From contig NZ_JAAIXY010000007.1 in NCBI RefSeq assembly GCF_010894455.1, forward strand, positions 186,001 through 250,000: a stretch of 64,000 nt of DNA, written 5' to 3'. Positions 38,316 to 53,391 of this stretch are shown here, piece after piece. A model generated the notes under the pieces. That model was not told the origin of the DNA and did no database searches. It worked only from the letters and a program-made list of their open reading frames with translations. The stretch comes from Myxococcus eversor (GTDB lineage Bacteria > Myxococcota > Myxococcia > Myxococcales > Myxococcaceae). A program made the position numbers and the translations under genes. How positions within the stretch are numbered: position 1 is the first letter of the stretch; every line of letters starts with the position of its first letter.

Positions 38316-41300
38316 TCAGCCAGCGGGCGGCGTATCCGACACGCGCTGGCGTCGGCTGAACACCCGTTGGACGACGACGAAGAACAGCGGCACGAAGAAG
38401 ATGCCCAGCAGCGTGCCGACAATCATGCCCCCGAGCACGCCGGTGCCAATGGCCCGCTGCGCGCCCGAGCCCGCGCCGGACGCAATCGCCAACGGCGTCA
38501 CGCCGAAGCCGAACGCCAGCGACGTCATCAGGATGGGCCGCAGACGCGAGCGCACCGCCGTCAGCGTCGCCTCAATCAACTCCATCCCCTTGTCCAGGTT
38601 CTCCTTCGCGAACTCGACGATGAGGATGGCGTTCTTGCTGGAGAGTCCCACCGTCGTCAGCATGGCGACCTGGAAGTACACGTCGCGGTCCATTCCCCGC
38701 AGCGCGCTTCCCAGCACCGTCCCCAGGATTCCCAGCGGCGCCACGAGCAGCACGGCCGTGGGAATCGTCCAGCTCTCATACATCGCCGCCAGGCACAGGA
38801 AGACCAGCAGCAGCGAGAGCGTGTAGAGCAACGGCGTCTGAGCACCCGCCGCGCGCTCCTGGTACGACTGCCCCGCCCACTCCAGGCCGAAGCCGGGAGG
38901 CAACTGGGAGACGAGCCGTTCGACCTCGGCCATCGCCACGCCGGAGCTCACGCCCGGAGCGGCCTCGCCGTTGATCTCCATCGCCGACACGCCGTTGAAG
39001 CGCTCCAGTCGCGGAGAGCCGGAGCCCCAGCGCGAGCTGGCGAAGGAGGTGAAGGGAACCATCTCGCCCTTCATGTTGCGCACCGACCAGCGGTTGAAGT
39101 CCTCGGGCACCATGCGGAACGGCGCGTCGGACTGGACGAACACCCGCTTGACGCGACCCCGGTCGATGAAGTCGTCGATGTACTGACCACCCCAGGCCAC
39201 CGAGAGCGTGTTGTTGATTTCAGCCGTCGCCAGCCCCAGCGCGGAGGCCTTCGCGACATCCACGTCGATGCGGAACTGCGGCGTGTCGTCCTGCCCGTTG
39301 GGCCGCACGTTCGCAAGCAACCCGTTCTGCGCCGCCGCGCCCAGGAACTGATTGCGCGCGGCCGTCAGCGCCTCGTGGCCCTGACCGGCGTTGTCCTTGA
39401 GGTAGAAGACGAAGCCCGCCGAGTTGCCCAGCTCCGACACCGCGGGCGGCGGGAAGGCGAACGCGAGCGCATCCTGGATCTGCGACAGCGCCCCCATGCC
39501 CTTGCCCGCCACGGCGTTGACGCCGAGCTCGGGCGACTTCCGCTCGGACCAGTCCTTGAGGTTGATGAACGCGATGCCGGAGTTCTGGCCACTGCCGCCA
39601 AAGCTGAAGCCCTGCACGCTGAACAGCGCGGCGACCGCGTCCTTCTGGTCCTCCAGGAAGTGCCGCTCCACCTGCTCAATCACCTTCATGGTGCGCTCCT
39701 GCGTCGCGCCCACGGGCGTCTGCACCAGCGCGAACAGGAAGCCCTGGTCCTCGGAGGGAAGGAAGGAGCTGGGCAGCCGCAGGAACAGCGCCACCATCAC
39801 CGCCACCATCACCACGAAGATGAGCATGAAGCGCCTGGTCCGGGAGAGGATTCCACGCACCACCCGCTGGTACCCCGCATTGCCCTTGTCGAAGCCGCGA
39901 TTGAACGCGCCGAAGAACCCCGTCTCCTTCACGTGGTGTCCCTTGGCAATCGGCTTGAGCAGCGTCGCGCAGAGCGCCGGGGTGAGGACGATGGCCACCA
40001 GCACGGAGAGCACCATGGACGTCACGATGGTCACCGAGAACTGCCGGTAGATGACGCCCGTGGCCCCTCCGAGGAACGCCATGGGAATGAAGACCGCGGA
40101 GAGCACGACGCCAATGCCCACCAGCGCGCTGGTGATCTGGTCCATCGACTTGCGGGTGGCCTCCACGGGAGACAACCCCTCCTCGCTCATCAGTCGCTCG
40201 ACGTTCTCGACGACGACGATGGCGTCATCGACGAGCAGGCCAATCGCAAGCACCATCGCGAACATCGTCAACATGTTCGCCGAATAGCCCAGCGCCGTGA
40301 GCACGCCGATGGTCCCCAACAGGACGACGGGCACGGCAATCGTCGGAATCAGCGTCGCGCGGAAGTTCTGGAGGAACAGGTACATCACCAGGAACACCAG
40401 GAGGATGGCCTCGAGCAGCGTCGAGATGACCCCCATGATGGCCACGCGCACGAACGGGGTGGTGTCGAACGGAATCACCGCCTTCATGCCCTTGGGCAGC
40501 GTCGGCTCCAGGTCCTTCAGGGCCGCGGCGACACCCTGCGCCGTGTCCAGCGCGTTGGCGCCGGCGGCCAGCGACACGGCGATGCCGGTGGCGGGCTTGC
40601 CGTTGTAGCGACTGATGATGCTGTAGTTCTCCGACCCCAGCTCCACCCGGGCCACGTCTCCGAGCCGGAGCACGGAGCCGTCGGCGTTGCCTCGCACGAT
40701 GATGTCGCGGAACTGCTCTGGCGTCTGGAGCCGGTCCTGCGCCGTCACCGTGGCGTTCAACTGCTGGCCCGGCACCGACGGCGTCCCACCGAGCTGCCCC
40801 ACCACGACCTGCTGGTTCTGGGCCCGGATGGCGCCGATGACGTCGTTCGGAGTCAGCGCGTAGGTGTCCAGCTTGTTCGGGTCCAGCCAGATGCGCATCG
40901 CGTACATCGTGCCGAACACCTGGGTGTTGCCCACGCCGGGGACGCGCGCGATGGGGTCCACCAGGTTCGTGGCGACGAAGTCCTGGATGTCGTCGCCGCC
41001 CATGCTGCCGTCCTCGGAGACGAAGGCAATCACCTGCAGGAAGCCCGAGGCGGCCTTGCTCACCGCGATGCCCTGCTGCTGCACCGTCTGCGGCAACAGC
41101 GGAATCGCGAGCTGCAGCTTGTTCTGCACCTGCACCTGCGCGATGTCCGGGTCGGTGCCGTTCTTGAACGTCAGGGTGACGGTCGCCGTGCCGTTCGACT
41201 CGCTGGTCGCCGACATGTAGAGCAACCCATCGAGTCCCTTCAGGCTCTGCTCGATGACCTGCGTGACGGAGTCCTCAATGGCCTTCGCGGAGGCACCGGG

Positions 41301-41447
41301 ATAGATGGCCGCCACCGTCACGGTGGGAGGCGCGATGACGGGGTACTGCGCGATGGGGAGCTGGGTGATGGAGAGCGCGCCCGCCATCATGATGATGATC
41401 GCCAGGACCCAGGCGAAGATCGGACGGTCAATGAAGAATCGTGCCAT
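38316..41447 (-). CDS. RND multidrug efflux permease (HAE1/AcrB type)
   Basis: A 1043-residue inner-membrane proton/drug antiporter, full length for AcrB. It starts [17 protein letters not shown], contains [19 protein letters not shown] and [12 protein letters not shown], and has the proton-relay aspartates in [19 protein letters not shown]. The two periplasmic porter loops and twelve membrane segments are in the usual order. It works as a trimer with an adaptor and an outer-membrane channel; no TolC-like gene is present here. It starts 12 bases after the adaptor gene stop, so they are one operon, presumably controlled by the divergent TetR gene. Confidence 0.95.
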
Positions 41448-41459
41448 GTGAAGGTCCCG

Positions 41460-42653
41460 TCACTCCTGCGTCTTCGCGGGAACCAGGGGCTCTGATTCCC
41501 CTGGCTTCGCGACCGCCGGTGGAGCTTCCGTCGCCTGGACGGGCATCCCCGGCTGGATTTTCTGGAGGCCTTCGACAATCACCCGGTCACCCTCGACCAG
41601 ACCGCTGTCGACGAGCCACCGGTCGCCCACCGTCCTGCTGGCCTGGACGACGCGAGGCTCGACCTTGCCGTCCTTGCCCACCACCAGCGCGGAGGCGTTG
41701 CCCTTCGCGTCCCTGGCGATGCCCTGCTGGGGAACGAGGATGCCCTGCTGGCGCAGCCCGTTGCCGACGAGCGCGCGCACGTACATGCCGGGCAGCAATG
41801 ACTGGTCGGGGTTGGGCACCGTCACGCGCAGCGCGAAGCTGCCGGTGCCCGGGTCCACCGTCACGTCGGAGAAGGTCAGCGAACCGGGATGCTCGTAGCG
41901 GCTGCCGTCCTCCAGGAGGAGCGTCACCGGCGTGCTGTCGGTGTTCTTGAGCGTCCCGGCATTCAGCTCCTTGCGCAGCCGCAGCAGCTCGCTGCTGGAC
42001 TGGGTCAGGTCGACGTAGAGCGGGTCCAGTTGTTGAACCACGGCGAGCGCCGTCGGCTGGTTGGCGGTGACGAGCGCGCCCTGGGTGATGGACGACTTGC
42101 CGATGCGCCCGGAGATGGGTGAGGTGATGCGGGCGTAGCCCAGCGTCACGCTCGCCCGCTGCAACGCGGCCTGCGCGGCCTTGACGTCCGCCTCCGCCTG
42201 TCCCAGCGAGGCCACGGCCTTCTCGTTGTCCGACGGGGTGACGGCCTCGAGCCGCAGCAGTTCGGCCGAGCGCCTGGCCGTCAGGGCGGCCGAGGTCAAG
42301 GTCGCCTGGGCACGCTCCAGCGCGGCCTTCGCGCTGCCGTAGTCCGCGCGGTAGGTCGCGTCGTCAAGCTCGTAGAGCGGCTGCCCTTGCTTGACTACAC
42401 CACCCTCCGTGAAGAGCCGGCGCTGGACCAGGCCGTTGACCTGGGGGCGGACCTCCGCCACGAGAAAGGCACTGGTGCGGCCCGGCAGCTCCCGGGTGAG
42501 GAGCACGGATTCCGCCTTCAGCGTGACGACGGTGACTTGCGACGGCCCGTAGGCCTCTTGCGGAGGGGCGGCTTTCTGGCAGGCGGCCAGAAGCGCGGCG
42601 CCGGACGACAAACCAACGAGCGCCAGCCGAAGCGAGCGCGAGCGAGACCACAT
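41460..42653 (-). CDS. RND efflux periplasmic adaptor (AcrA/MexA type)
   Basis: A 397-residue membrane fusion protein. The signal region LVGLSSGAALLAACQKAA ends in a lipoprotein cysteine. The lipoyl-like half motifs (VRPQVNGLVQRRLFTEGG and GYARITSPISGRIG) flank a coiled-coil hairpin (about residues 95-165: LERAQATLTSAALTARRSAE), and beta-barrel and membrane-proximal domains follow. It links the permease to an outer-membrane channel. It is the first gene of the efflux operon. Confidence 0.94.
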   Translation of the reverse strand: MWSRSRSLRLALVGLSSGAALLAACQKAAPPQEAYGPSQVTVVTLKAESVLLTRELPGRTSAFLVAEVRPQVNGLVQRRLFTEGGVVKQGQPLYELDDATYRADYGSAKAALERAQATLTSAALTARRSAELLRLEAVTPSDNEKAVASLGQAEADVKAAQAALQRASVTLGYARITSPISGRIGKSSITQGALVTANQPTALAVVQQLDPLYVDLTQSSSELLRLRKELNAGTLKNTDSTPVTLLLEDGSRYEHPGSLTFSDVTVDPGTGSFALRVTVPNPDQSLLPGMYVRALVGNGLRQQGILVPQQGIARDAKGNASALVVGKDGKVEPRVVQASRTVGDRWLVDSGLVEGDRVIVEGLQKIQPGMPVQATEAPPAVAKPGESEPLVPAKTQE

Positions 42654-42882: not shown

Positions 42883-42889
42883 AGTCGTG

Positions 42890-43570
42890 ATGCCGCGCAG
42901 CGCGTCCCCCACTCGTCGGAAGCAACCTCGCCAGCAGCGGGCACAGGCCACGTGCGACGCCATCCTCACGGCCACCGCCCGCATCCTCATTCGTGATGGC
43001 TACGAGACCACGAGCACCAACCGGATTGCCCAGGAGGCCGGGGTCAGCATCGGCTCGCTCTACCAGTACTACCCGAACAAGGAGGGGTTGGTGTTCGCGG
43101 TGTTGGAGCACCACGGCGCCCAGTGGCTCGCGGGGTTCGAGGCGGCGCTGCACGACTCCGCCTCCGCGTCGCTGAACGTGGCGGTCCGCGCCATCATCCA
43201 GAAGATCCTCACGCTCAAGCGGCTCCATCCCCAGTTGGATCCGCTCCGGTATGCCCTGCTGCCCGTGCTGCGTCCGTTGGGATACGTGGACACGTTCGAG
43301 CAACAGCTCTTCCGGCTGGTGCGGGCGTTCCTCGCGGCGCGCCTGGAGGACATCCGGCCGCGCGAGCTGGACATGGCGGTCTTCATCATCGTCCACACGT
43401 TGGAGGCGCTCTGCCACGCCGCGGGGGTGGACCGCCCCGACTACCTCACGAACGAGCCGTTCCCGGAGGAGCTGTGCGCGCTCGTGCTCGGCTATCTGCG
43501 CCCCGAGCCCGTGGCCTTGCGCCCTCCGCCCCACCGGTCCGCCGCGCCTCGACGGAAATATGAGCAGTAG
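42890..43570 (+). CDS. TetR/AcrR family transcriptional regulator
   Basis: A 226-residue repressor-type regulator. The N-terminal HTH is typical (ILTATARILIRDGYETTSTNRIAQEAGVSIGSLYQYYPNKEGL). The rest is the helical ligand-binding and dimerisation domain, with a basic C-terminal tail. ATG at 42890 has AAGGAG five bases upstream; a GTG just before it is in frame. It is divergent from the RND operon and most likely represses it until a drug binds. It also lies 133 bases upstream of the desaturase-PKS operon on the same strand and could control that too. Confidence 0.92.
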   Translation: MPRSASPTRRKQPRQQRAQATCDAILTATARILIRDGYETTSTNRIAQEAGVSIGSLYQYYPNKEGLVFAVLEHHGAQWLAGFEAALHDSASASLNVAVRAIIQKILTLKRLHPQLDPLRYALLPVLRPLGYVDTFEQQLFRLVRAFLAARLEDIRPRELDMAVFIIVHTLEALCHAAGVDRPDYLTNEPFPEELCALVLGYLRPEPVALRPPPHRSAAPRRKYEQ

Positions 43571-43703
43571 CCCCGGGGAGCGCGCGACGAAGGCCCCTTT
43601 CCCCTCGGTGGCGAGAATGTGAGCCCCCATGCGAGTTGAGCCGGGGTGCAATCAAATACATCCTGATTGCACCTCCAGCGCCTGTCTCGACGGCTCTCCA
43701 TTC

Positions 43704-44747
43704 ATGAATCTCCATCCCGATGACCAGCGGCGAGCAGCCGCGCACCACGCGTCCGCGCTCGGAGCCTTTCCCTCCCTGACGCCGTCCCAGCTCGAAGCCA
43801 TCCGGCACCGGGCCCGGGACTTCCTGGAGCAGTTCCGCGCCCACCCCGTGTTGCATGACACCGTCAACGTCCTGCTGCTGCTGGGCCTGTTCGCGGCGGA
43901 TGTGCTGTCACTGACGCTGCTGCCCTCCGTGTTGCCCTGGACGCTGTCGACACCGGGCAACACCGTGCTCGCGGGGCTGGTGTCCGGCGCGGCGCATGGC
44001 TTCCTCGTGTGCGGCATCGTCACCTTCAGCGTGCACGAAGGCGCCGCGCACGACCTCATCATCATCGGCGAGGGACGGCTGGCGCGCACGCTGCGAGTCC
44101 TCGCGAACAATGCCTGCCGGCTCTTCCTCGCGGACCCGCTCCACTACAGGGAGGCCCATGCGAGCCATCACCGGAGCCTGGGGACAGAGGACGACGGCTC
44201 CTTCACCCACTTCGTCCGCTTCCGCCGGCTCCTGGGAAGCCTGCTCCCGCTGGCGCCCATGCTCAGTCACTCCGACTACTTCCCCTGGCGCCCCCAGGAG
44301 CACACGCGCAGCCGCAGGCTCTCCGTCGCCCTGACCAACGTGTACCTGGTGCTCTGCGCGGTGCTGGCGACGTGGCTCCATGGGTGGCTCTTCACGGGCG
44401 TGGCGCTGTTCCTCGTCGGCAGTTGGCTCAGCTTCGTGTTGGACAGGCTGCGCGAGAGCACCGAGCACCTCTTCATGCCCCTGGACCGGGTGAATGGAAC
44501 GAGGGAGCTGGGCCTGGGCTTCTGGGGACTGCTCCTCGGCGGCGGGCCGTGGGGACAACCCTGTCATCTGTCGCATCATCTGGCGCCCGCGCTGCCCTGG
44601 TACCAGCAGCTCCGGCTGCACTTCTTCCTGCGCCGTGTGTTGAGCCCGGAGCAGCGGAGCCACTTCTTCCCGCGGCCCGTCATCGGCATCCCCTCGTTGC
44701 TCTGGCGACTGGCCACCGCGACACCTCCCGCCCCGACGCGGGACTGA
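43704..44747 (+). CDS. Membrane fatty acid desaturase/hydroxylase
   Basis: A 347-residue membrane di-iron enzyme. Three histidine boxes are present: HEGAAHD (from about 111), HYREAHASHH (about 147-156) and HLSHH (about 288-292), arranged around hydrophobic hairpins. This is the acyl-lipid desaturase/hydroxylase/ketolase pattern. It would introduce a double bond or hydroxyl into an acyl chain, perhaps the product of the PKS encoded downstream (inference). ATG 43704 gives the expected N terminus; an ATG at 43629 is in frame, but the added 25 residues look non-conserved. The gap to the next gene is 13 bases. Confidence 0.82.
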   Translation: MNLHPDDQRRAAAHHASALGAFPSLTPSQLEAIRHRARDFLEQFRAHPVLHDTVNVLLLLGLFAADVLSLTLLPSVLPWTLSTPGNTVLAGLVSGAAHGFLVCGIVTFSVHEGAAHDLIIIGEGRLARTLRVLANNACRLFLADPLHYREAHASHHRSLGTEDDGSFTHFVRFRRLLGSLLPLAPMLSHSDYFPWRPQEHTRSRRLSVALTNVYLVLCAVLATWLHGWLFTGVALFLVGSWLSFVLDRLRESTEHLFMPLDRVNGTRELGLGFWGLLLGGGPWGQPCHLSHHLAPALPWYQQLRLHFFLRRVLSPEQRSHFFPRPVIGIPSLLWRLATATPPAPTRD

Positions 44748-44760
44748 AAGGCCTGACGCC

Positions 44761-46374
44761 ATGAACTCCCCTTCTCCACGCGGCGACGCGTCCGCGAGTG
44801 GTGCGTCCTTCGACGCCATCTTCATCGGCTCGGGCATCGGCTGCCTGGGCGCCGCAGCGGTGCTCGCCCGGCACGGAATGAAGGTGCTCGTGCTGGAGCA
44901 GCACTCCATCGCCGGAGGGATGACCCACACCTTCCGACGCAAGGGCTATGAGTGGGACGTCGGCGTGCACTGTCTGGGCAAGGTGCATGACCCGAACGCG
45001 CAACTGCGCCAGGTCTTCGACTTCGTCACCGACGGCGCGCTCGGCTGGGCGCGCATGGCGCCTGTGTATGACAGGCTCGTCTTCAGCGACCGGAGCCATG
45101 ACTTCATCGCTGGGGCGGAGGCGTTCCAGGAGGAGCTGGGCCGCGCCTTTCCGTCCGAGCGCAAGGCCATCGCCACATACCTGGGCCTGTTGCGCGGAGT
45201 GGAGCGGGCCTCGCAGCGCTACTTCATCCAGCACGTCCTTCCCCGCTGGATGACACCGCTCACGTATCCCGTGCTCGGCTGGCCCTTCCGGCGCCATTCG
45301 AATCGCACGACGGGGGACGTGTTGCGCTCGCTCACGTCGGACTCGCGACTGCTGGGGGTGCTCACGGGACAGTGGGGCAACTACGCGCTGCCACCCGGAG
45401 AGAGCAGCTTCGCCATGCATGCCCTCATGGCCGAGTACTACCTGGAGGGCGGCTGCTATCCCGTGGGAGGCGCCGGGAGCATCCTGGACACCATTGCCCC
45501 GGTCATCACCCGCGCCGGAGGACAGCTTCGCGTCCGCGCCGAGGTGAAAGAGATTCTGGTGCGCGACGGCCGCGCCCTGGGCGTTCGCCTGACGAGCGGA
45601 GAAGAGCTCCTGGCCCGGCATGTCATCAGCGGCGCGGGCGCGGCACGGACGCTGGGCGTGCTGCTGCCGGAGCGCTGGCGTCCTCCTGACGCCGTGCGGG
45701 CCCTCCAACGGATTCCCCAGTCCATCGGACACCTGGGCCTGTATCTCGGCCTCCGAGGCTCGCCCGAGGAGGTAGGCCTGCCCGCTACCAACGTGTGGGT
45801 CCATGCCGGGTATGACCATGACGCGAACCTGCGCGCGTTCAGGAACGACGCCTCGTCCCCGCTGCCCGTCGTCTACCTGAGCTCCTCGTCCGCGAGAGAC
45901 CCCGCGTGGACGCAACGACATCCAGGGCGCTCCACGCTCACCGCCGTGTGCCCGGCTCCCTACTCCTGGTTCGAGCGCTGGGAGGGCACGCGCTGGCACC
46001 GACGAGGGCCCGAGTATGAGGCTCTCAAGGCCCAGCTCACCGAGCGGCTGCTCTCCGTCGTCTTCGACCAGTTCCCCCAGCTCCGTGGACGGGTGGAGCA
46101 CCAGGAGCTGTCCACACCGCTCAGCACGGCGCACTTCGCTCATCGGCCTCGTGGTTCCATCTACGGGCTGGAGCACAGCCCGGAGCGCTTCCGCCAACCC
46201 TGGCTGCGCTCGCGACTTCCCATCCGCGACCTGCTCCTCGTGGGACAGGACGCTGTCTCCGTGGGCGTCGGCGCGTCCCTGATGTCCGGCGTCCTGGCCG
46301 CCTCCGTCATCCTGCGGCGCAACGTCCTCGGCGACATCGAGCGCCAGTCATCCGCCTACCGCCGCGCGGCCTGA
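44761..46374 (+). CDS. CrtI/retinol-saturase-like FAD oxidoreductase
   Basis: A 537-residue FAD-dependent oxidoreductase of the phytoene desaturase / carotenoid isomerase / retinol saturase group. The dinucleotide fold is AIFIGSGIGCLGAAAVLARHG with VLVLEQHSIAGGMTHTF. The GYEWDVGVH segment is typical of RetSat-like members. A late FAD-contact segment, LLVGQDAVSVGVGASLMSGVLAA, is present. It acts on conjugated or isolated double bonds in lipids. It lies between the desaturase and the PKS, so all three probably build one lipid-like product (inference). Confidence 0.87.
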   Translation: MNSPSPRGDASASGASFDAIFIGSGIGCLGAAAVLARHGMKVLVLEQHSIAGGMTHTFRRKGYEWDVGVHCLGKVHDPNAQLRQVFDFVTDGALGWARMAPVYDRLVFSDRSHDFIAGAEAFQEELGRAFPSERKAIATYLGLLRGVERASQRYFIQHVLPRWMTPLTYPVLGWPFRRHSNRTTGDVLRSLTSDSRLLGVLTGQWGNYALPPGESSFAMHALMAEYYLEGGCYPVGGAGSILDTIAPVITRAGGQLRVRAEVKEILVRDGRALGVRLTSGEELLARHVISGAGAARTLGVLLPERWRPPDAVRALQRIPQSIGHLGLYLGLRGSPEEVGLPATNVWVHAGYDHDANLRAFRNDASSPLPVVYLSSSSARDPAWTQRHPGRSTLTAVCPAPYSWFERWEGTRWHRRGPEYEALKAQLTERLLSVVFDQFPQLRGRVEHQELSTPLSTAHFAHRPRGSIYGLEHSPERFRQPWLRSRLPIRDLLLVGQDAVSVGVGASLMSGVLAASVILRRNVLGDIERQSSAYRRAA

Positions 46375-46485: not shown

Positions 46486-49400
46486 ATGAAGCCCTCACTG
46501 CGATTGCTCCAGACCCTCCTGCGCGGACCGACTCGAGGACGACTGGCCCCCCTGGAGGAGAGCGTCACGCACTGGCGCGTCCTGCCCACGGACCTGGACC
46601 TCTTCGGCCACATGAACAACAGCCGCTATCTGGCGATGATGGATCTGGGCCGCGTCGACCTGCTCGTGCGCGCGGGGCTCTTGTCGGACCTGCTCCAGCA
46701 CCGCTGGGTCGTCCCTGTCGGCGAGACATCGCTCCAGTTCAGAGGCTCGCTGCGCCTGTTCGAGAAGTACGCACTGGGCACCCGCCTGGCCGCCTGGGAC
46801 GACCATTGGCTCTACTTCCAGCAGGAGTTCCGGAGGCCATCGGAGCCCGAGCGCCCCGTGGCCACGGGCTATGTGCGCGCCGTCTTCCGCGACGCGAAGG
46901 GCTCCGTCCCACCGGCCCGCATCATCCAGAGCGTGTTGGGACATGAGGCGCGAAGCCCGGAGCCCGACGAGGAGCTGCGCCGCCGCTTCGACCTGCGAGG
47001 CGCGCGGGCCGACACCGCCGCGGCTTCCACGCGCGAGCCGCTGGCCATCGTCGGCATCGGCTGCCGTCTTCCTGGCGGCATCGAAGACACAGACGGCTTC
47101 TGGACGGTGTTGATGGAAGGGCGCGAGTGCATCGTCGATATCCCCGAGGAGCGATGGGATGCGAAGAAGTTCCACGATGCCTCTGGCAAGGCGCCCGGCC
47201 GGACCTACGTGCAGAGAGCGGGGCTGCTCCAGCAGGACCTCCGCGAGTTCGAGCCGGGCTTCTTCGGCATCACCCCGCGCGAGGCCAACGCCCTGGACCC
47301 GCAGCAGCGCTTGATGCTGGAGGTCTCCTGGGAAGCGCTCGAGGACGCGGGCGTGCCACCGAGCACCCTCGCGGGCAGCCGCACCGGCGTCTTCGTCGGT
47401 GGCTTCATGATGGACAACCTCATCCTGCACGCGAGCCCGGACAACCGGGAGCGGCTCGACAGCCACTCGGCGACGGCGAGCACGCTGACGATGCTCTCCA
47501 ACCGGCTGTCCTACTTCTATGACCTGCGAGGCCCCAGCGTCTCCATGGACACGGCCTGCTCGTCCTCGCTCGTCGCGCTGCATCTGGCGTGTCAGAGCAT
47601 CTGGGCGAAGGAGAGCGACGCGGCGCTCGTCGGTGGCGTCAACGTCCTCCTCCTCCCGGAGACCCAGGTCACCATGTCCAAGGGGCGCTTCCTCTCTCCC
47701 CGAGGCCGCTGCCACGCATTCAGCGACCAGGCCGACGGCTACGTGCGCGCCGAGGGCGCCGCGATGCTGGTCATCAAACCCCTGTCATCCGCGCTGCGCG
47801 ATGGCAATCCCATCCACTCGCTCATCCTCGGCACCGCCGTGAATCAAGACGGGCGAACGCCGGGCATCACCGTGCCCAATGCTGAAGCGCAGGTGGCCGT
47901 GATGCGCGAGGCGTACGCGAAGGCAGGCGTCGACCCGCACAGCGTCGCGTATGTCGAAGCCCATGGCACGGGCACGCCGGTAGGTGACCCCATCGAAGCG
48001 CGGGCCATCGGCACGGTGACAGGCGTGGGACGCGGTGACGGCGAGCGCTGCCGGATGGGCTCGGTGAAGACGAACCTGGGGCACCTGGAAGCGGCGGCGG
48101 GTGTGGCGGGCGTCATCAAGGCGGCCCTCGTCCTCAAGCACGGCACCGTGCCGCCGCACCTGCATCTGGAGAAGGTGAACCCCCAGATTCCGCTCGACGC
48201 GCTCGGCCTGCACATCCCCACGCGTCCGGAGTCGTTGCCGCGCGGGACGGAGCCTCGCATCGCGGGAGTGAACTCCTTCGGCTACGGAGGCACCAACGCT
48301 CACGTCGTCCTGGCCGAGCCACCTCCGCGAGTGGCCACCCTGACTCCCCGACGCCCGGAAGGACGCCCCCTGCTGCTGCCCCTGGGCGCGAAGTCACCCG
48401 AAGCCCTGTCCGCGCTCGCGGGTCGCTACGCCACCTGGTTGGAGACAGGACGAGGAACGCCGGAGCAACTCTGCCGCGACGCGGCCGTGCACCGCTCCCA
48501 TCCTCGTCATCGACTGGCCCTCCGCGGCACGAGTCGCGAAACCATGGCGACCTCACTGCGCGCCTTCTCGAAGGGTCAGCGCGATGTCCCCGGCCTGGAC
48601 TTCCTCGCGGAGCCTCCCGAGCGCCACAAGGTCCTCTTCGTCTACACAGGGATGGGTCCGCAGTGGTGGGCCATGGGACGACAGCTCCTGGCCACCGAGC
48701 GCGTCTTCCGCGACGCAGTGGAGGAGTGCGACGTCCTCTTTCGCGAGCTGGCGGGGAGGTCCATCGCCGAGGAGTTGGCGCGGGACGAGGCGTCTTCGCG
48801 CATCACCCGCACGGAGGTGGCACAGCCCGCCAACGCGGTGTTGCAGGTGGCGCTCACGCGGCTGTGGGCCTCGTGGGGAGTCGTCCCCGACGCCGTGGTG
48901 GGGCACAGCATCGGCGAGGTCGGCGCGGCGTGGGCATCAGGGGCCCTGGATTTGCGAGACGCGCTGCTCACCGCCTTCCATCGGAGCAGGCTCCAGCAAC
49001 GGCTCGCGGGGCATGGCGCCATGCTGGCGGTGGGACTCGGGCCGGACGAGGCGCTCGAATGGGTCCAGCGTCACGGCCCTGGCATCGCCGTCGCGGCCAT
49101 CAACAGTGAGCGCTCCGTCACCCTCGCGGGCGAACGTGCCCCGCTGGAGCGCGTGGCCTCCGAGCTGGCCGCGGCTCAACGCTTCCACCGCTTCCTGCAG
49201 GTCGAGGTGCCGTATCACAGCCCGCTCATGGACCCGCTCCAGGGAGAGCTGCTCACCGCCCTGAAACCCCTGCGGCCCCGCGCGCCGGGCATTCCCATCT
49301 ACTCGACGGTGTCCGGCCGACGCATGGAGCCGGGCGAGCGTCACGACGCCACCTACTGGTGGAACAATGTCCGAGGCTCGGTGCGCTTCGCGCAGGCGCT

Positions 49401-52400
49401 TCGTCAAGCCGTGGAGGACGGGCATGGAGCGTTCGTGGAGGTGGGCCCGCACCCGGTGCTGGCCTCGTCCATCCGCGACGTCCTGAGCGCGTCCAAGGCG
49501 CGCGGCGAGGTCATCGCATCGCTCGTGCGTGAGGCGCCCGAGCAGGAGACGATGGCCGCCGCGCTCGGACGACTCCATGTCCTGGGGGCGGAGCTCTCAT
49601 GGCCGGGGTATTTCGGAGCGGGCGCCTACTCAGGAGCGCCGCGCACGCCCTGGCAACGCAAGACCTACTGGGAAGAGAGCCCACGCTCCGCACGTCGACG
49701 GCGCGCCTTCGTGGGGCATCCCTTGCTGATGGACTCCGAGCCGGGCCCCGCCCCCACGTGGACGGCGGAGTTGAACCTCGCGGCGTTGCCCTATCTCGCG
49801 GACCATCGGGTGGCTGGCAGCCTCCTCTTTCCTGGCGCGGGACATGTGGAACTGGCGCTGGCGGCGAGGCACGCGCTCACGGGGGATGCGCGCTGCTGCA
49901 TCGAAGAACTGGAGCTCACGTCGGCGATGTTGCTCCGCGAGGACTCGAGCCCTCGTGTACGGCTGAGCTTCTCGTCCGAGACGTCGTCCTTCCACGTCCA
50001 GCGACAGGAGGAAGAGCAACAGCCGGTGGTCTGCGCTCGAGGCAAGCTGGTCTCGACCGGGCGCGCGACCCACACCGTGGACGTGGCGGCGCTTCAGGCG
50101 CGAATGTCGGACCTGACGGACGCCGACACGCTCTATGCCGCGCTTGAGCGCCGGGGGTTGAGCTACGGCCCTGCCTTCCGCGCGGTGACGACGCTGCACC
50201 GTGCATCAGGCGAGGTGCTCGCGCGACTGTCTCTCCCCTCCTCCGTGGACGAGCGGGGCTACCATCTGCATCCCGTGTTGCTCGATGCGGCGTTCCACAG
50301 CCTCATCGCGGCGGCGACGGAAGAGGCGAAGCACGACATCGTGCCCACGGGCATCGAGCGCCTCCAGGTGCTCGGCCTCCCGGGCCGGGAGCTGTTCGCC
50401 CATGGGCGACTCCTCTCCGTGAGCGGAGCCACCCTGCGTGGGGACATCACGCTGATGACGGAAGACGGCACCGTCCTGGCCGAAATCACGGGCTTCACGT
50501 GCCGCTTGTTGCCTCGGGTTGCCTCGGACGATGCGGCACTGATGGAGCGCTCCGTGTACCTGCGTCAGTGGGAGCGAATCGAGCCCGCGGAGCCAGCTGC
50601 GCGGGAAGAGGTGACCTGGGTGGTGCTGGGTGGCTCGGCGCCAGAGGCAGGTGCGCGTGGCTGGCACCACGTCACTGACGCCATCTCATTGGACACGATT
50701 GTTGGAGGGCTGCCCGAGCAGGAGCGCGTGCGGCTCGTCGACCTGCGCTGGCTCGACTCGGCTCCCGAGAGCGAGACACCCGTGTTTCGGGGAACGGATG
50801 CCGCGGAGGCGCTCCTGCGAGGAGTCCAAGCGCTGCGTCCCGGTCGAATCGAGCGCTACTACCTGATCACCACTCGTGCCGAGCTGGTGTCCGCTTCGGT
50901 CGAGGGCACGCCAGGTGCGAAGCCGTTGCCGGGTGCGTCAGACGCGACGGTCCTCGGGAACACGGCTCCGACTTTCGCCGTGGAACAGCCAGACCTGCCT
51001 TCGCTGGAACATGCGCCGCTGCTCGGGCTGGCCCGGACCGTCATGACGGAGCGCCCTGACCTCCGCTTCACGTGGGTGGACCTCGACGCGGCTCCGACGA
51101 GCGTCGAGGCTTTGCTGGTCCGCCTGCGTGGACTCGGCGAGGAGCAGGAGGTCGCCGAGCGCGAGGGGCTGTTCCATGCCTCGCGCCTCGTGCGTGGCAC
51201 CCTCACCTCAGCGCAATCCCTCGCGGAGGGCCCACCACTGATGCCAGTCCCCGAGGGAATGGGCTACGAGTTGGTGCTCGGAGAGGAAGGACGACTCGAC
51301 ACGCTCGGCTTCGTGCCACGCGCGCGCCATGCTCCCGGCGTCGGTGAAGTCGAAATCGAGGTCGAGACCACCGCCCTGGGCTTCAAGGACATCATGAAGG
51401 CCCTGGGCCTGCTCTCCGCGCGCGTGAAGCAGAACACCTATATCGGCGACGCCATCGGCATGGAGGGAGCCGGGCGCATCAGCGCCGTGGGCGCGGGAGT
51501 GACGGACTTCGCGGTGGGAGACCGCGTCTACGGTGTCGCCCCGGGCTTCGTGGCATCCCACGTGGTCCTGCCCGCCGGGCACGTGGTGAAGCTCCCCGCG
51601 CACCTGACCTTCGAGGAGGGTGCCAACCTCATCGTCTTCATGACCGTGTACCACGCGCTGGTGCGGGTGGCGCGACTGCGCCGGGGCGAGCGAATCCTCA
51701 TCCATGGAGCCACGGGAGGCATCGGGCTCGCGGCCATCGAGGTCGCCCGCTGGTGCGGCGCGGACATCATCGCCACGGCCGGAAGTGACGAGAAGCGTCA
51801 GTACCTGCGCGAGCACGGCCTCACCCACGTGAGCAGCTCCCGCGACGTGAGCTTCGCGGATGACGTGCACGCCTGGACAGGAGGGCGTGGCGTGGACGTG
51901 GTGCTGAACTTCATGCCCGGTGAGGTCATGACGAGGAGCCTCGGCTGTCTGGCTCCGTTCGGACGGTTCATCGAGCTGGGCAAGGCCAGCTTCGAGCAGG
52001 ACGAACTGCTCCGCCTGCGTCCGTTCAACGAAAATTTGATGTACGCGGCGGTCGACTTCGACCGACTCCTGGATTGCCGTCCCGAAGAAGTGCGCGAGCT
52101 GTACCAGGAGGTGCTGCAGCGCTTCGAGGAAGGGAGCTTCCACCCCCTGCCCTCCCGCTCCTGGCCCGCGAGTCAGGTGGAGGAGGCCTTCAGGACCATG
52201 GCGAGAGGCAAGCACATTGGCAAGGTGTGCATCTCCCTGAAGGACCCGGCGCTGCGCGTCCTTCCGCCCGCGCGGCACGAGCGACTCTTCGCCGACGGCA
52301 CGTATCTCGTCACGGGTGGCCTCGGAGGGTTTGGACTGGAAGTCGCGCGCTGGCTCGTGGAGCAAGGCGCGCGGCATCTGGTCCTGGTGAGTCGGAGAGG

Positions 52401-53391
52401 CGCATCGTCCGAGGAGGCACGTGAGGCTCTCGCGGCCTGGAGCACTCGCGGTGTCACCGTCCTCGCGGTGTCTGCGGACGTGGCCCGGTACGAGGACCTG
52501 GAGCAGGTCTTCACGCGCCTGCGCGCCGAACTCCCTCCGCTCCGAGGCGTCTTCCATTGCGCTGTCGCCCTGGACGACAAGCCGCTGGAGCGCCTGGACC
52601 GGGCCTCACTGGACAGGGTGATGGCCGCGAAGGCCCAAGGAGCCTGGAACCTGCATCTGTTGACTCGCGCGTCGCCGCTCAACCACCTGATTCTCTTCTC
52701 CTCCATCTCCTCGCTCATCGGCAACGCGGGGCAAGGCAGCTACGTCGCAGCCACCGCGTTCCTGGACCAGCTCGCGGTGTACCGGCGACAGCAGGGCCTG
52801 GCGGCGACGGCACTCCAGTGGGGGGCCCTGGGAGAAGCGGGGCTCGTCGCGCGCAACGCGAACGTGGCGCAGCACCTGGAACACCTGGGGCTGCGCGGCC
52901 TGTCCACCCGTGCCGCGCTCCAGGCACTCGGGCGCGTCCTGGACGCCCCTCCCGTGCAACTGGCCATCGCGGACGTGGACTGGAATCGCCTGGGTGCGGC
53001 GCTCGTGCCTTGGAGTGGGGCTCGGCGTCTCGTCGGACTGCTGAAGACCGCGGAGCAAGCCCCCAGCAACGAGCCTGGCGCCCTCGCGGGCATGGACGAG
53101 GACACCCGACGCGGGCTCGTCACCCAAACCCTCTCTCGAATCGTGGCGAGGGTCATGCGCACCCAGGAAGGCTCACTCAATCCCACCCAGCCCCTCCGTG
53201 AGCTGGGAATGGACTCCATCATGGCCCTGGAAATCGTCACGGCGGTGGAGCGCGAGCTGGGCGTGAAGCTGTCCACGATGGAGGTGGTGAGCGGCCCGTC
53301 CCTGCGCGAACTGTCCACGCGCCTGTCCATCAGCGCGGTTCCGGAAAACCAGACAGCCTCCGGTCCACATTCACACACAATGCACCTGTAA
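46486..53391 (+). CDS. Fully reducing type I polyketide synthase with N-terminal hotdog thioesterase
   Basis: A 2301-residue single-module PKS. Domains in order: hotdog thioesterase-like (about 25-160; TDLDLFGHMNNSRYLAMMD), KS (184-610; DTACSSSL Cys near 358, HGTGT, KTNLGH), AT (700-1000; GHSIGEVGA near 805 and VPYHSPLMD, suggesting malonyl), DH (1080-1370; DHRVAGSLLFPG, LLDAAFH), a structural pseudo-KR (1370-1595), ER (1595-1910; HGATGGIGLAA), KR (1935-2120; TGGLGGFG, LDD) and ACP (GMDSIMALE, Ser near 2241). There is no C-terminal thioesterase, so the hotdog domain may release the chain. In the KR, Y2086 is followed by T2090 where Asn is usual. A single complete reducing module suggests iterative use to make a saturated or partly reduced chain. 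Confidence 0.95.
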   Translation: MKPSLRLLQTLLRGPTRGRLAPLEESVTHWRVLPTDLDLFGHMNNSRYLAMMDLGRVDLLVRAGLLSDLLQHRWVVPVGETSLQFRGSLRLFEKYALGTRLAAWDDHWLYFQQEFRRPSEPERPVATGYVRAVFRDAKGSVPPARIIQSVLGHEARSPEPDEELRRRFDLRGARADTAAASTREPLAIVGIGCRLPGGIEDTDGFWTVLMEGRECIVDIPEERWDAKKFHDASGKAPGRTYVQRAGLLQQDLREFEPGFFGITPREANALDPQQRLMLEVSWEALEDAGVPPSTLAGSRTGVFVGGFMMDNLILHASPDNRERLDSHSATASTLTMLSNRLSYFYDLRGPSVSMDTACSSSLVALHLACQSIWAKESDAALVGGVNVLLLPETQVTMSKGRFLSPRGRCHAFSDQADGYVRAEGAAMLVIKPLSSALRDGNPIHSLILGTAVNQDGRTPGITVPNAEAQVAVMREAYAKAGVDPHSVAYVEAHGTGTPVGDPIEARAIGTVTGVGRGDGERCRMGSVKTNLGHLEAAAGVAGVIKAALVLKHGTVPPHLHLEKVNPQIPLDALGLHIPTRPESLPRGTEPRIAGVNSFGYGGTNAHVVLAEPPPRVATLTPRRPEGRPLLLPLGAKSPEALSALAGRYATWLETGRGTPEQLCRDAAVHRSHPRHRLALRGTSRETMATSLRAFSKGQRDVPGLDFLAEPPERHKVLFVYTGMGPQWWAMGRQLLATERVFRDAVEECDVLFRELAGRSIAEELARDEASSRITRTEVAQPANAVLQVALTRLWASWGVVPDAVVGHSIGEVGAAWASGALDLRDALLTAFHRSRLQQRLAGHGAMLAVGLGPDEALEWVQRHGPGIAVAAINSERSVTLAGERAPLERVASELAAAQRFHRFLQVEVPYHSPLMDPLQGELLTALKPLRPRAPGIPIYSTVSGRRMEPGERHDATYWWNNVRGSVRFAQALRQAVEDGHGAFVEVGPHPVLASSIRDVLSASKARGEVIASLVREAPEQETMAAALGRLHVLGAELSWPGYFGAGAYSGAPRTPWQRKTYWEESPRSARRRRAFVGHPLLMDSEPGPAPTWTAELNLAALPYLADHRVAGSLLFPGAGHVELALAARHALTGDARCCIEELELTSAMLLREDSSPRVRLSFSSETSSFHVQRQEEEQQPVVCARGKLVSTGRATHTVDVAALQARMSDLTDADTLYAALERRGLSYGPAFRAVTTLHRASGEVLARLSLPSSVDERGYHLHPVLLDAAFHSLIAAATEEAKHDIVPTGIERLQVLGLPGRELFAHGRLLSVSGATLRGDITLMTEDGTVLAEITGFTCRLLPRVASDDAALMERSVYLRQWERIEPAEPAAREEVTWVVLGGSAPEAGARGWHHVTDAISLDTIVGGLPEQERVRLVDLRWLDSAPESETPVFRGTDAAEALLRGVQALRPGRIERYYLITTRAELVSASVEGTPGAKPLPGASDATVLGNTAPTFAVEQPDLPSLEHAPLLGLARTVMTERPDLRFTWVDLDAAPTSVEALLVRLRGLGEEQEVAEREGLFHASRLVRGTLTSAQSLAEGPPLMPVPEGMGYELVLGEEGRLDTLGFVPRARHAPGVGEVEIEVETTALGFKDIMKALGLLSARVKQNTYIGDAIGMEGAGRISAVGAGVTDFAVGDRVYGVAPGFVASHVVLPAGHVVKLPAHLTFEEGANLIVFMTVYHALVRVARLRRGERILIHGATGGIGLAAIEVARWCGADIIATAGSDEKRQYLREHGLTHVSSSRDVSFADDVHAWTGGRGVDVVLNFMPGEVMTRSLGCLAPFGRFIELGKASFEQDELLRLRPFNENLMYAAVDFDRLLDCRPEEVRELYQEVLQRFEEGSFHPLPSRSWPASQVEEAFRTMARGKHIGKVCISLKDPALRVLPPARHERLFADGTYLVTGGLGGFGLEVARWLVEQGARHLVLVSRRGASSEEAREALAAWSTRGVTVLAVSADVARYEDLEQVFTRLRAELPPLRGVFHCAVALDDKPLERLDRASLDRVMAAKAQGAWNLHLLTRASPLNHLILFSSISSLIGNAGQGSYVAATAFLDQLAVYRRQQGLAATALQWGALGEAGLVARNANVAQHLEHLGLRGLSTRAALQALGRVLDAPPVQLAIADVDWNRLGAALVPWSGARRLVGLLKTAEQAPSNEPGALAGMDEDTRRGLVTQTLSRIVARVMRTQEGSLNPTQPLRELGMDSIMALEIVTAVERELGVKLSTMEVVSGPSLRELSTRLSISAVPENQTASGPHSHTMHL

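Follow-up and report, generated by a model that had tools for sequence, protein, structure and literature searches.

A hotdog thioesterase-like domain at the front of a MAS-like PKS in Myxococcus

Introduction

Chain release determines what an iterative PKS makes, and one gene of the soil bacterium Myxococcus eversor poses the problem of release in an inverted form: how might a synthase that ends in its ACP set free a finished chain with a thioesterase-like domain that stands at the very front, ahead of the KS? And if that domain is the gate, how does an ACP at the far end of the protein reach across to an active site at the front end? We have approached these questions through the gene itself, its relatives and its neighbours. 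The gene, here called hotdog-PKS, lies in a window of 64,000 nucleotides (contig NZ_JAAIXY010000007.1, positions 186,001 to 250,000) of an 11.4-Mb genome, and all coordinates without a locus name are those of the window.

Hotdog folds and PKSs have been found together before. Few bacterial type I PKSs are said to contain hotdog domains, and those of the PfaC type are assigned to the FabA-like dehydratase subfamily (PMC516016), whereas the domain described here belongs to the thioesterase branch; a hotdog within a bacterial type I PKS is in itself no novelty. The fungal leucinostatin cluster, as reported, has a 4HBT_2 thioesterase-like gene, lcsJ, and a reducing PKS gene, lcsB, with three genes between them (PMC4946873), but these are separate fungal genes and hotdog-PKS is one fused bacterial gene. 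Among titles and abstracts, searched mostly in non-subscription journals, we found none that reports a PKS headed by a hotdog thioesterase. What we describe is a variant, by N-terminal fusion, of two known things: MAS-like PKSs and hotdog thioesterases.

Results

The anatomy that the sequence-only reading had given to this gene, a lone KS-AT-DH-psiKR-ER-KR-ACP module behind an N-terminal hotdog, holds up against both Pfam and an alignment to MAS (Table 1). The order is hotdog (4HBT_2)–KS–AT–DH–psiKR–ER–KR–ACP and nothing follows the ACP, after whose Pfam match only 22 residues remain. The 4HBT_2 family (PF13279) matches aa 32-166 (E 6.3e-22, 78.8 bits against a cut-off of 25.5), with the FGHMNNSRY motif at aa 40-48, and the Pfam spans behind it are KS 184-562, AT 718-1036, DH 1078-1347, ER 1620-1914, KR 1938-2116 and PP-binding 2215-2279. 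No Pfam family matches aa ~1348-1619, and the MAS alignment is continuous across that region, which therefore fits a psiKR. The motifs of KS, AT, DH, ER (a nucleotide motif) and ACP, together with Asp38 of the hotdog, are intact in all six hotdog-PKSs that we found. One position departs: where the KR of all five relatives has the Asn of YxxxN, M. eversor has Thr2090, a difference that may reflect either a weakened KR in this strain or a wrong base call.

Table 1. Features of the four-gene operon and of hotdog-PKS, in window positions.
Feature	Position	Strand	Basis or detail
TetR-family regulator, first of four genes	42887..43570	+	Pfam TetR_N 7.6e-16, TetR_C_15 6.2e-16
Fatty-acid-desaturase-family enzyme	43629..44747	+	Pfam FA_desaturase 1.1e-13; His boxes HEGAAH, HASHH, HLSHH
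CrtI-like FAD oxidoreductase	44761..46374	+	Pfam Amino_oxidase, NAD_binding_8
hotdog-PKS	46486..53391	+	ATG, 2301 aa, frame open end to end (ORF reading, Pfam, alignment to MAS)
N-terminal amphipathic helix (aa 3-13)	46492..46524	+	AF2 helix 3-13; hydrophobic moment 0.69, residues 1-14
4HBT_2 hotdog thioesterase-like domain (aa 24-166)	46555..46983	+	Pfam, AF2, fold matches; Asp38 codon 46597-46599
Variable hotdog-KS linker (aa 161-183)	46966..47034	+	Pairwise identity 0.38-0.64
Ketosynthase (KS) with C-terminal extension	47035..48450	+	DTACSSS, EAHGTGT, NLGHLEAAAG
Acyltransferase (AT)	48637..49593	+	GHSIGE; specificity region VPYHSPLM
Dehydratase (DH)	49717..50526	+	HRVAGSLLFPG; DAAFH
psiKR structural region	50548..51255	+	No Pfam match; fastest-evolving domain except the linker
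Enoylreductase (ER)	51343..52227	+	Pfam and alignment
Ketoreductase (KR)	52297..52833	+	YxxxN position is Thr2090 (52753-52755) in M. eversor
Acyl carrier protein (ACP)	53128..53322	+	GMDS; then just 22 residues

Could the hotdog be an illusion of annotation, lost if translation began later? A start that drops it is disfavoured, because there is no in-frame start upstream in the stretch and because the ATG, with a GAAAGG ribosome-binding-like stretch before it, is identical in five of five relatives. Chance or faulty assembly we reject, since the fusion, its start codon and its operon all recur in five further genomes.

The best full-length solved relative of the module is MAS (992 bits over aa 184-2291), and on the MAS side the alignment runs from residue 6 to 2106 of a 2124-residue chain. 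MAS has the domain order KS-AT-DH-psiKR-ER-KR-ACP, and it too is a single module in one chain without a C-terminal TE. The sequence-only reading had counted the missing C-terminal release domain as a peculiarity of this gene; as MAS also does without one, its absence is not in itself unusual. What sets hotdog-PKS apart is the hotdog, which has no counterpart ahead of the MAS KS (the match begins at MAS residue 6), and a different set of operon partners. The VPYHSP of its AT aligns to VPAHSP in an avermectin AT and to YASHSP in DEBS ATs, and is neither YASH nor HAFH, which we take to be the two classic specificity motifs; MAS is reported to use methylmalonyl-CoA (PMC3089613), whereas the AT motif here fits neither classic type. 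Hotdog-PKS is not a Pks2 equivalog: among the best 25 of 124 NCBIfam matches, the Pks2 model (NF041183) scores 1181.6 bits where an equivalog would need 2400. The layout is nonetheless of MAS type, a single complete module with its active sites intact save for KR Thr2090, and this layout, together with an operon that holds no second PKS gene and no NRPS gene, suggests iterative chain building.

That the front domain is a hotdog is supported by its AF2 model (pLDDT 83.9, from ten sequences), which has at least 50 fold matches, with Z of 11.2-15.2 among the matches listed. Known and putative thioesterases are among them: the best is YbgC (1s5u, 15.2), then YbaW (14.4), Orf6 of Photobacterium (14.3) and 4HBT (13.8), and the enediyne thioesterases CalE7 (13.3), EspE7 and SgcE10 (13.1 each) and DynE7 (12.9) are there as well. 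With YbgC/4HBT-I and THEM6-like proteins it shares the 4HBT_2 family, the D-x-D-x-x-G-H-M-N-N pattern (and thus the Asp of DxxGH) and the predicted fold, although the free YbgC/4HBT-type proteins stand alone and this one is fused to a PKS. The THEM6 label once given to it presumably reflects a motif resemblance, and THEM6 is described as a protein without a characterised biological function (PMC8899912). A search of PHROGs with the hotdog gave no match.

The catalytic residue of such a domain would be Asp38. Its partner in the alignment to 1z54, a Thermus protein, is the Asp of ETDQMG, and it stands at an offset of 21 from D17 of 4HBT, a figure taken from the range ends of the 1lo7 and 1lo9 matches only. 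According to PMC2698920, the YbgC D18N mutant cannot hydrolyse short-chain acyl-CoA, 4HBT-I uses Asp17, and both subunits contribute residues to hotdog active sites. Asp36, Asp38, His42, Asn44, Asn45 and Tyr48 do not vary across the 13 aligned sequences, six of them fused and seven free. In five of the 15 possible pairwise comparisons dN/dS over the hotdog (residues 25-155) is 0.12, 0.23, 0.07, 0.21 and 0.22, and over the same five it is 0.08-0.13 for KS, 0.15-0.25 for DH, 0.27-0.39 for psiKR and 0.63-0.75 for the linker; the hotdog thus changes at about the rate of DH, for the most part faster than KS, and far more slowly than the linker behind it. By these measures the hotdog is under purifying selection and keeps the catalytic Asp of the YbgC/4HBT type, and the N-terminal hotdog that was first read from the letters gains a Pfam family, an Asp intact in six of six and a confident fold model.

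Where else does this arrangement occur? When the 187 N-terminal residues were searched against 100 genomes, 32 matched with E no worse than 1e-3, and the fusion was present in 6 of 27 genomes of the same genus, M. eversor counted (74-100% matches, in frames open over 2319-2840 aa); G003 and G005, both among the six, have a free hotdog homologue in addition. A profile search of 195 Myxococcota, in which the best candidates of each genome, up to 17, were scored, recovered the same six fusions, and in the other 189 genomes it found no fusion and only matches in short frames, of at most 457 aa. Among 398 sampled Pseudomonadota (the best candidates per genome, up to 8) the fusion was not found: 71 match at 1e-15, and the longest frame is 436 aa. 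Weak N-terminal matches lie in larger frames of G054 (950 aa, E 8e-5), G078 (934 aa with one stop, E 4.8e-4) and G038 (549 aa with one stop, E 1.3e-5). Plasmid records match in 7 of 72,556 cases. Of 12 loci that match the hotdog (L031-L042), the nine that were read for ORFs comprise seven free proteins (L033-L039) and two fusions, one in Myxococcus llanfair… (L031) and one in M. dinghuensis (L032), both of the same genus. The proposed search for the same architecture elsewhere has thus turned up five further same-genus genomes that have the fusion together with its operon. The architecture is genuine; it is intact and conserved, and among the genomes that we sampled it is rare.

The free relatives are proteins of ~170-220 aa with a similar short N-terminal helix. 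The fused hotdog aligns along the entire free protein, helix included, with M1 and R6 invariant, and since the free relatives begin with such a helix, the fusion seems to have captured a whole free protein. The hydrophobic moment of the helix is 0.54-0.69 in three fused proteins against 0.28-0.59 in four free ones, so that the fused exceed most of the free. In all three such loci scanned, in different bacteria, the free hotdog gene adjoins an MMPL/Patched-like–LolA_like transporter gene (L033:10001-15044, L035:10001-13758, L037:9989-13707), with a DUF1302 gene next in line in L033, and in L034 it adjoins ABC-transporter genes. In a genome of the same genus without the fusion (L051:4706-7958), a desaturase-family gene and an alpha/beta hydrolase gene stand directly upstream of a free hotdog gene, all on one strand. 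Apart from the hotdog, no part of hotdog-PKS matched the 20-kb loci L033-L038 at 1e-6. These neighbourhoods point to work on acyl chains or membrane lipids, and away from a fixed PKS link before the fusion; because the free genes sit beside transporters and lack PKS parts nearby, the ancestral substrate may have been acyl-CoA and not acyl-ACP.

The fusion travels with three other genes. In all six loci the order is TetR–fatty-acid desaturase–CrtI-like flavoprotein–hotdog-PKS, and the TetR gene is kept in five of five relatives at 78-89% identity. The desaturase may truly start at Met26 (43704), where three relatives begin in a six-sequence alignment; it has no match at E 1 among PDB sequences, and its AF2 model is poor (pLDDT 37, from three sequences). 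The flavoprotein scores below cut-off with both crtI_fam (119.7 bits) and carot_isom (123.7 bits) of NCBIfam, and its best solved relative is a gamma-carotene desaturase (E 1.4e-11). In eight loci that have flavoprotein relatives at 44-50% identity, from elsewhere in the taxonomic order (L070, L107-L113), hotdog-PKS was not found. Two flavoprotein homologues (46-49%) lie beside ORFs of 819-831 aa, one with kelch repeats (L107:5183-7642) and one with no Pfam family (L113:6162-8657).

When the flanks of the six loci were compared by blastn, about 4-8 kb on each side, sharing was confined to subsets: M. eversor with L043 upstream (and in an extra 500-base match 2.7-4.3 kb downstream), L046 with L047 on both sides, and L043 with L045 downstream. 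The four genes are for this reason the conserved unit. Within those flanks no further release-type gene is conserved with the operon, which ends at the PKS, and the hotdog is the only release-type domain that we found conserved with it. Divergent from the operon lies an RND adaptor gene (41460-42653, minus strand; RND_mfp 280.7 bits against a cut-off of 94.9) which, with an adjoining 1043-aa ORF, occupies 38316-42653 (minus strand); common only to L043 among the five relatives, the pair falls outside the unit.

A search of the M. eversor genome with 4HBT_2 gave six matches, two of them in large frames, and the other large frame is a synthase as well (L139:6479-13087; G000:C36:127478-134086). 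Its 2202 aa read hotdog–AT–KS–KR–DH-N, and an ACP–ACP–SDR gene stands 24 bases upstream. Its front domain scores 26.0 bits alone, against the cut-off of 25.5, and 20.6 within the whole protein; its best solved matches are 5v10 (2.3e-5) and CalE7 (0.011), so that we call it a probable hotdog. It cannot be aligned with the first (BLASTP E 0.06) and by eye lacks the canonical Asp. Like hotdog-PKS this synthase would have a hotdog at its extreme N terminus; unlike it, the 4HBT_2 match is weak, the ACPs are on a neighbouring gene, and the gene is near-universal in the genus (26 of 27 genomes; 29 of 100 overall, with frames of 2127-2382 aa in 28 and of 916 in one). If its domain is a hotdog, front-end hotdogs on synthases arose at least twice in Myxococcus, which makes the first fusion less unique and the pattern more interesting. 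The sequence-only reading had called the N-terminal placement of a release domain unusual, and that is right as to rarity in the genomes sampled and probably wrong if taken to mean uniqueness.

Discussion

What, then, might the front domain do? The architecture, its conservation, the operon, the selection and the intact residues are direct observations, and on these and a predicted fold we base the reading that we favour with moderate confidence: this is an iterative PKS of MAS layout whose hotdog thioesterase frees the acyl chain as an acid in cis, and whose operon partners modify that chain. Hotdog-PKS would work alone, as an iterative and highly reducing type I enzyme, with a fatty-acyl-like chain growing on its one ACP. 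Once the chain is finished, the N-terminal hotdog would hydrolyse it off the ACP, in cis within the homodimer, and a free acid would result. Double bonds would be added or rearranged, before or after release, by the desaturase and the CrtI-like flavoprotein, and the TetR protein would govern expression of the operon. Placement at the N terminus may succeed for a structural reason: the active sites of hotdogs lie at the interface of a dimer, the KS is the dimeric centre of a PKS, and the two tethered hotdogs could therefore pair close to the KS twofold axis.

Enediyne synthases offer the nearest precedent. SgcE10, DynE7 and EspE7 have the same fold as our domain by model matches, and the domain order of enediyne PKSs differs from the order here. 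CalE7 is reported to act in trans on the iterative PKS CalE8 and free its product, and catalytically incompetent CalE7 to form a stable complex with CalE8 in which the polyene stays on the ACP (PMC3107222); this much resembles our proposal, an iterative highly reducing type I PKS with release by a hotdog thioesterase. In the enediyne systems, however, the thioesterase is a separate protein, whereas here it is fused before the KS and has the canonical YbgC/4HBT Asp. The locus is accordingly not an enediyne PKS/thioesterase pair, the hotdog being fused in six of six loci.

Segments ahead of the KS often serve dimerisation or docking, and one might suppose that this hotdog is a catalytically dead remnant kept for its shape; yet its catalytic motif is invariant, and selection holds the fold far more tightly than the linker next to it, which makes such a role very improbable. 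Another thought is that the domain acts on acyl-CoA, for starter supply or on membrane acyl pools, and rides on the PKS mainly for localisation, perhaps by way of its helix. The similar helix of the free relatives and the annotations of the plasmid homologues (acyl-CoA thioesterase in three of the seven, thioesterase family protein in two more) fit this idea, but fusion to a synthase that bears an ACP is more simply explained by work on acyl-ACP, and CalE7, a hotdog thioesterase, is reported to work on a PKS-bound acyl chain (PMC3107222); we think it improbable.

The MAS pathway suggests a different exit altogether. There mas encodes an iterative type I PKS, MAS is described without a TE domain, and PapA5 carries out the diesterification of phthiocerol with mycocerosate (PMC3089613); since MAS lacks a TE and PapA5 esterifies its product, it is conceivable that the MAS-like hotdog-PKS also gives up its chain by transfer, through an enzyme encoded elsewhere, and that the hotdog is an editing (type II TE) thioesterase, which would remove chains that have stalled or were primed wrongly. 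The genome does have separate thioesterase-family genes: PF00975 has 22 matches, of which the two best lie in short frames (293 and 272 aa), and 4HBT_2, besides its two large frames, has four matches in ORFs of 164-261 aa. Their products could act in trans on the chain. But a comparison of some 4-8 kb on each side revealed no acyltransferase, ligase or other acceptor enzyme that stays with the operon, and six flanking genes of L044, L045 and L046, scanned with Pfam, have no family in common and include a single putative esterase, convergent and downstream in L045, within a stretch common to L043 only. An editing hotdog seems to us rather unlikely, and release in cis by the hotdog is the reading that we retain.

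A bolder idea, which we hold only tentatively and think possible rather than probable, is that Myxococcus has twice independently fronted iterative synthases with releasing thioesterases, drawn from unrelated subfamilies, and that N-terminal fusion is a general hotdog solution. Hotdogs must dimerise, the argument would go, and the KS twofold axis would give them their pairing as an ACP-tethered position at the C terminus would not, so that the PKS would release its chains through a front-end gate.

The arrangement could show where release domains can work. If release in cis is true, those who engineer MAS-like or FAS-like synthases to release free acids would gain a new position for a hotdog thioesterase, the N terminus. 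The desaturase and CrtI-like flavoprotein that accompany the fusion hint, perhaps, at an undescribed unsaturated lipid product in these bacteria.
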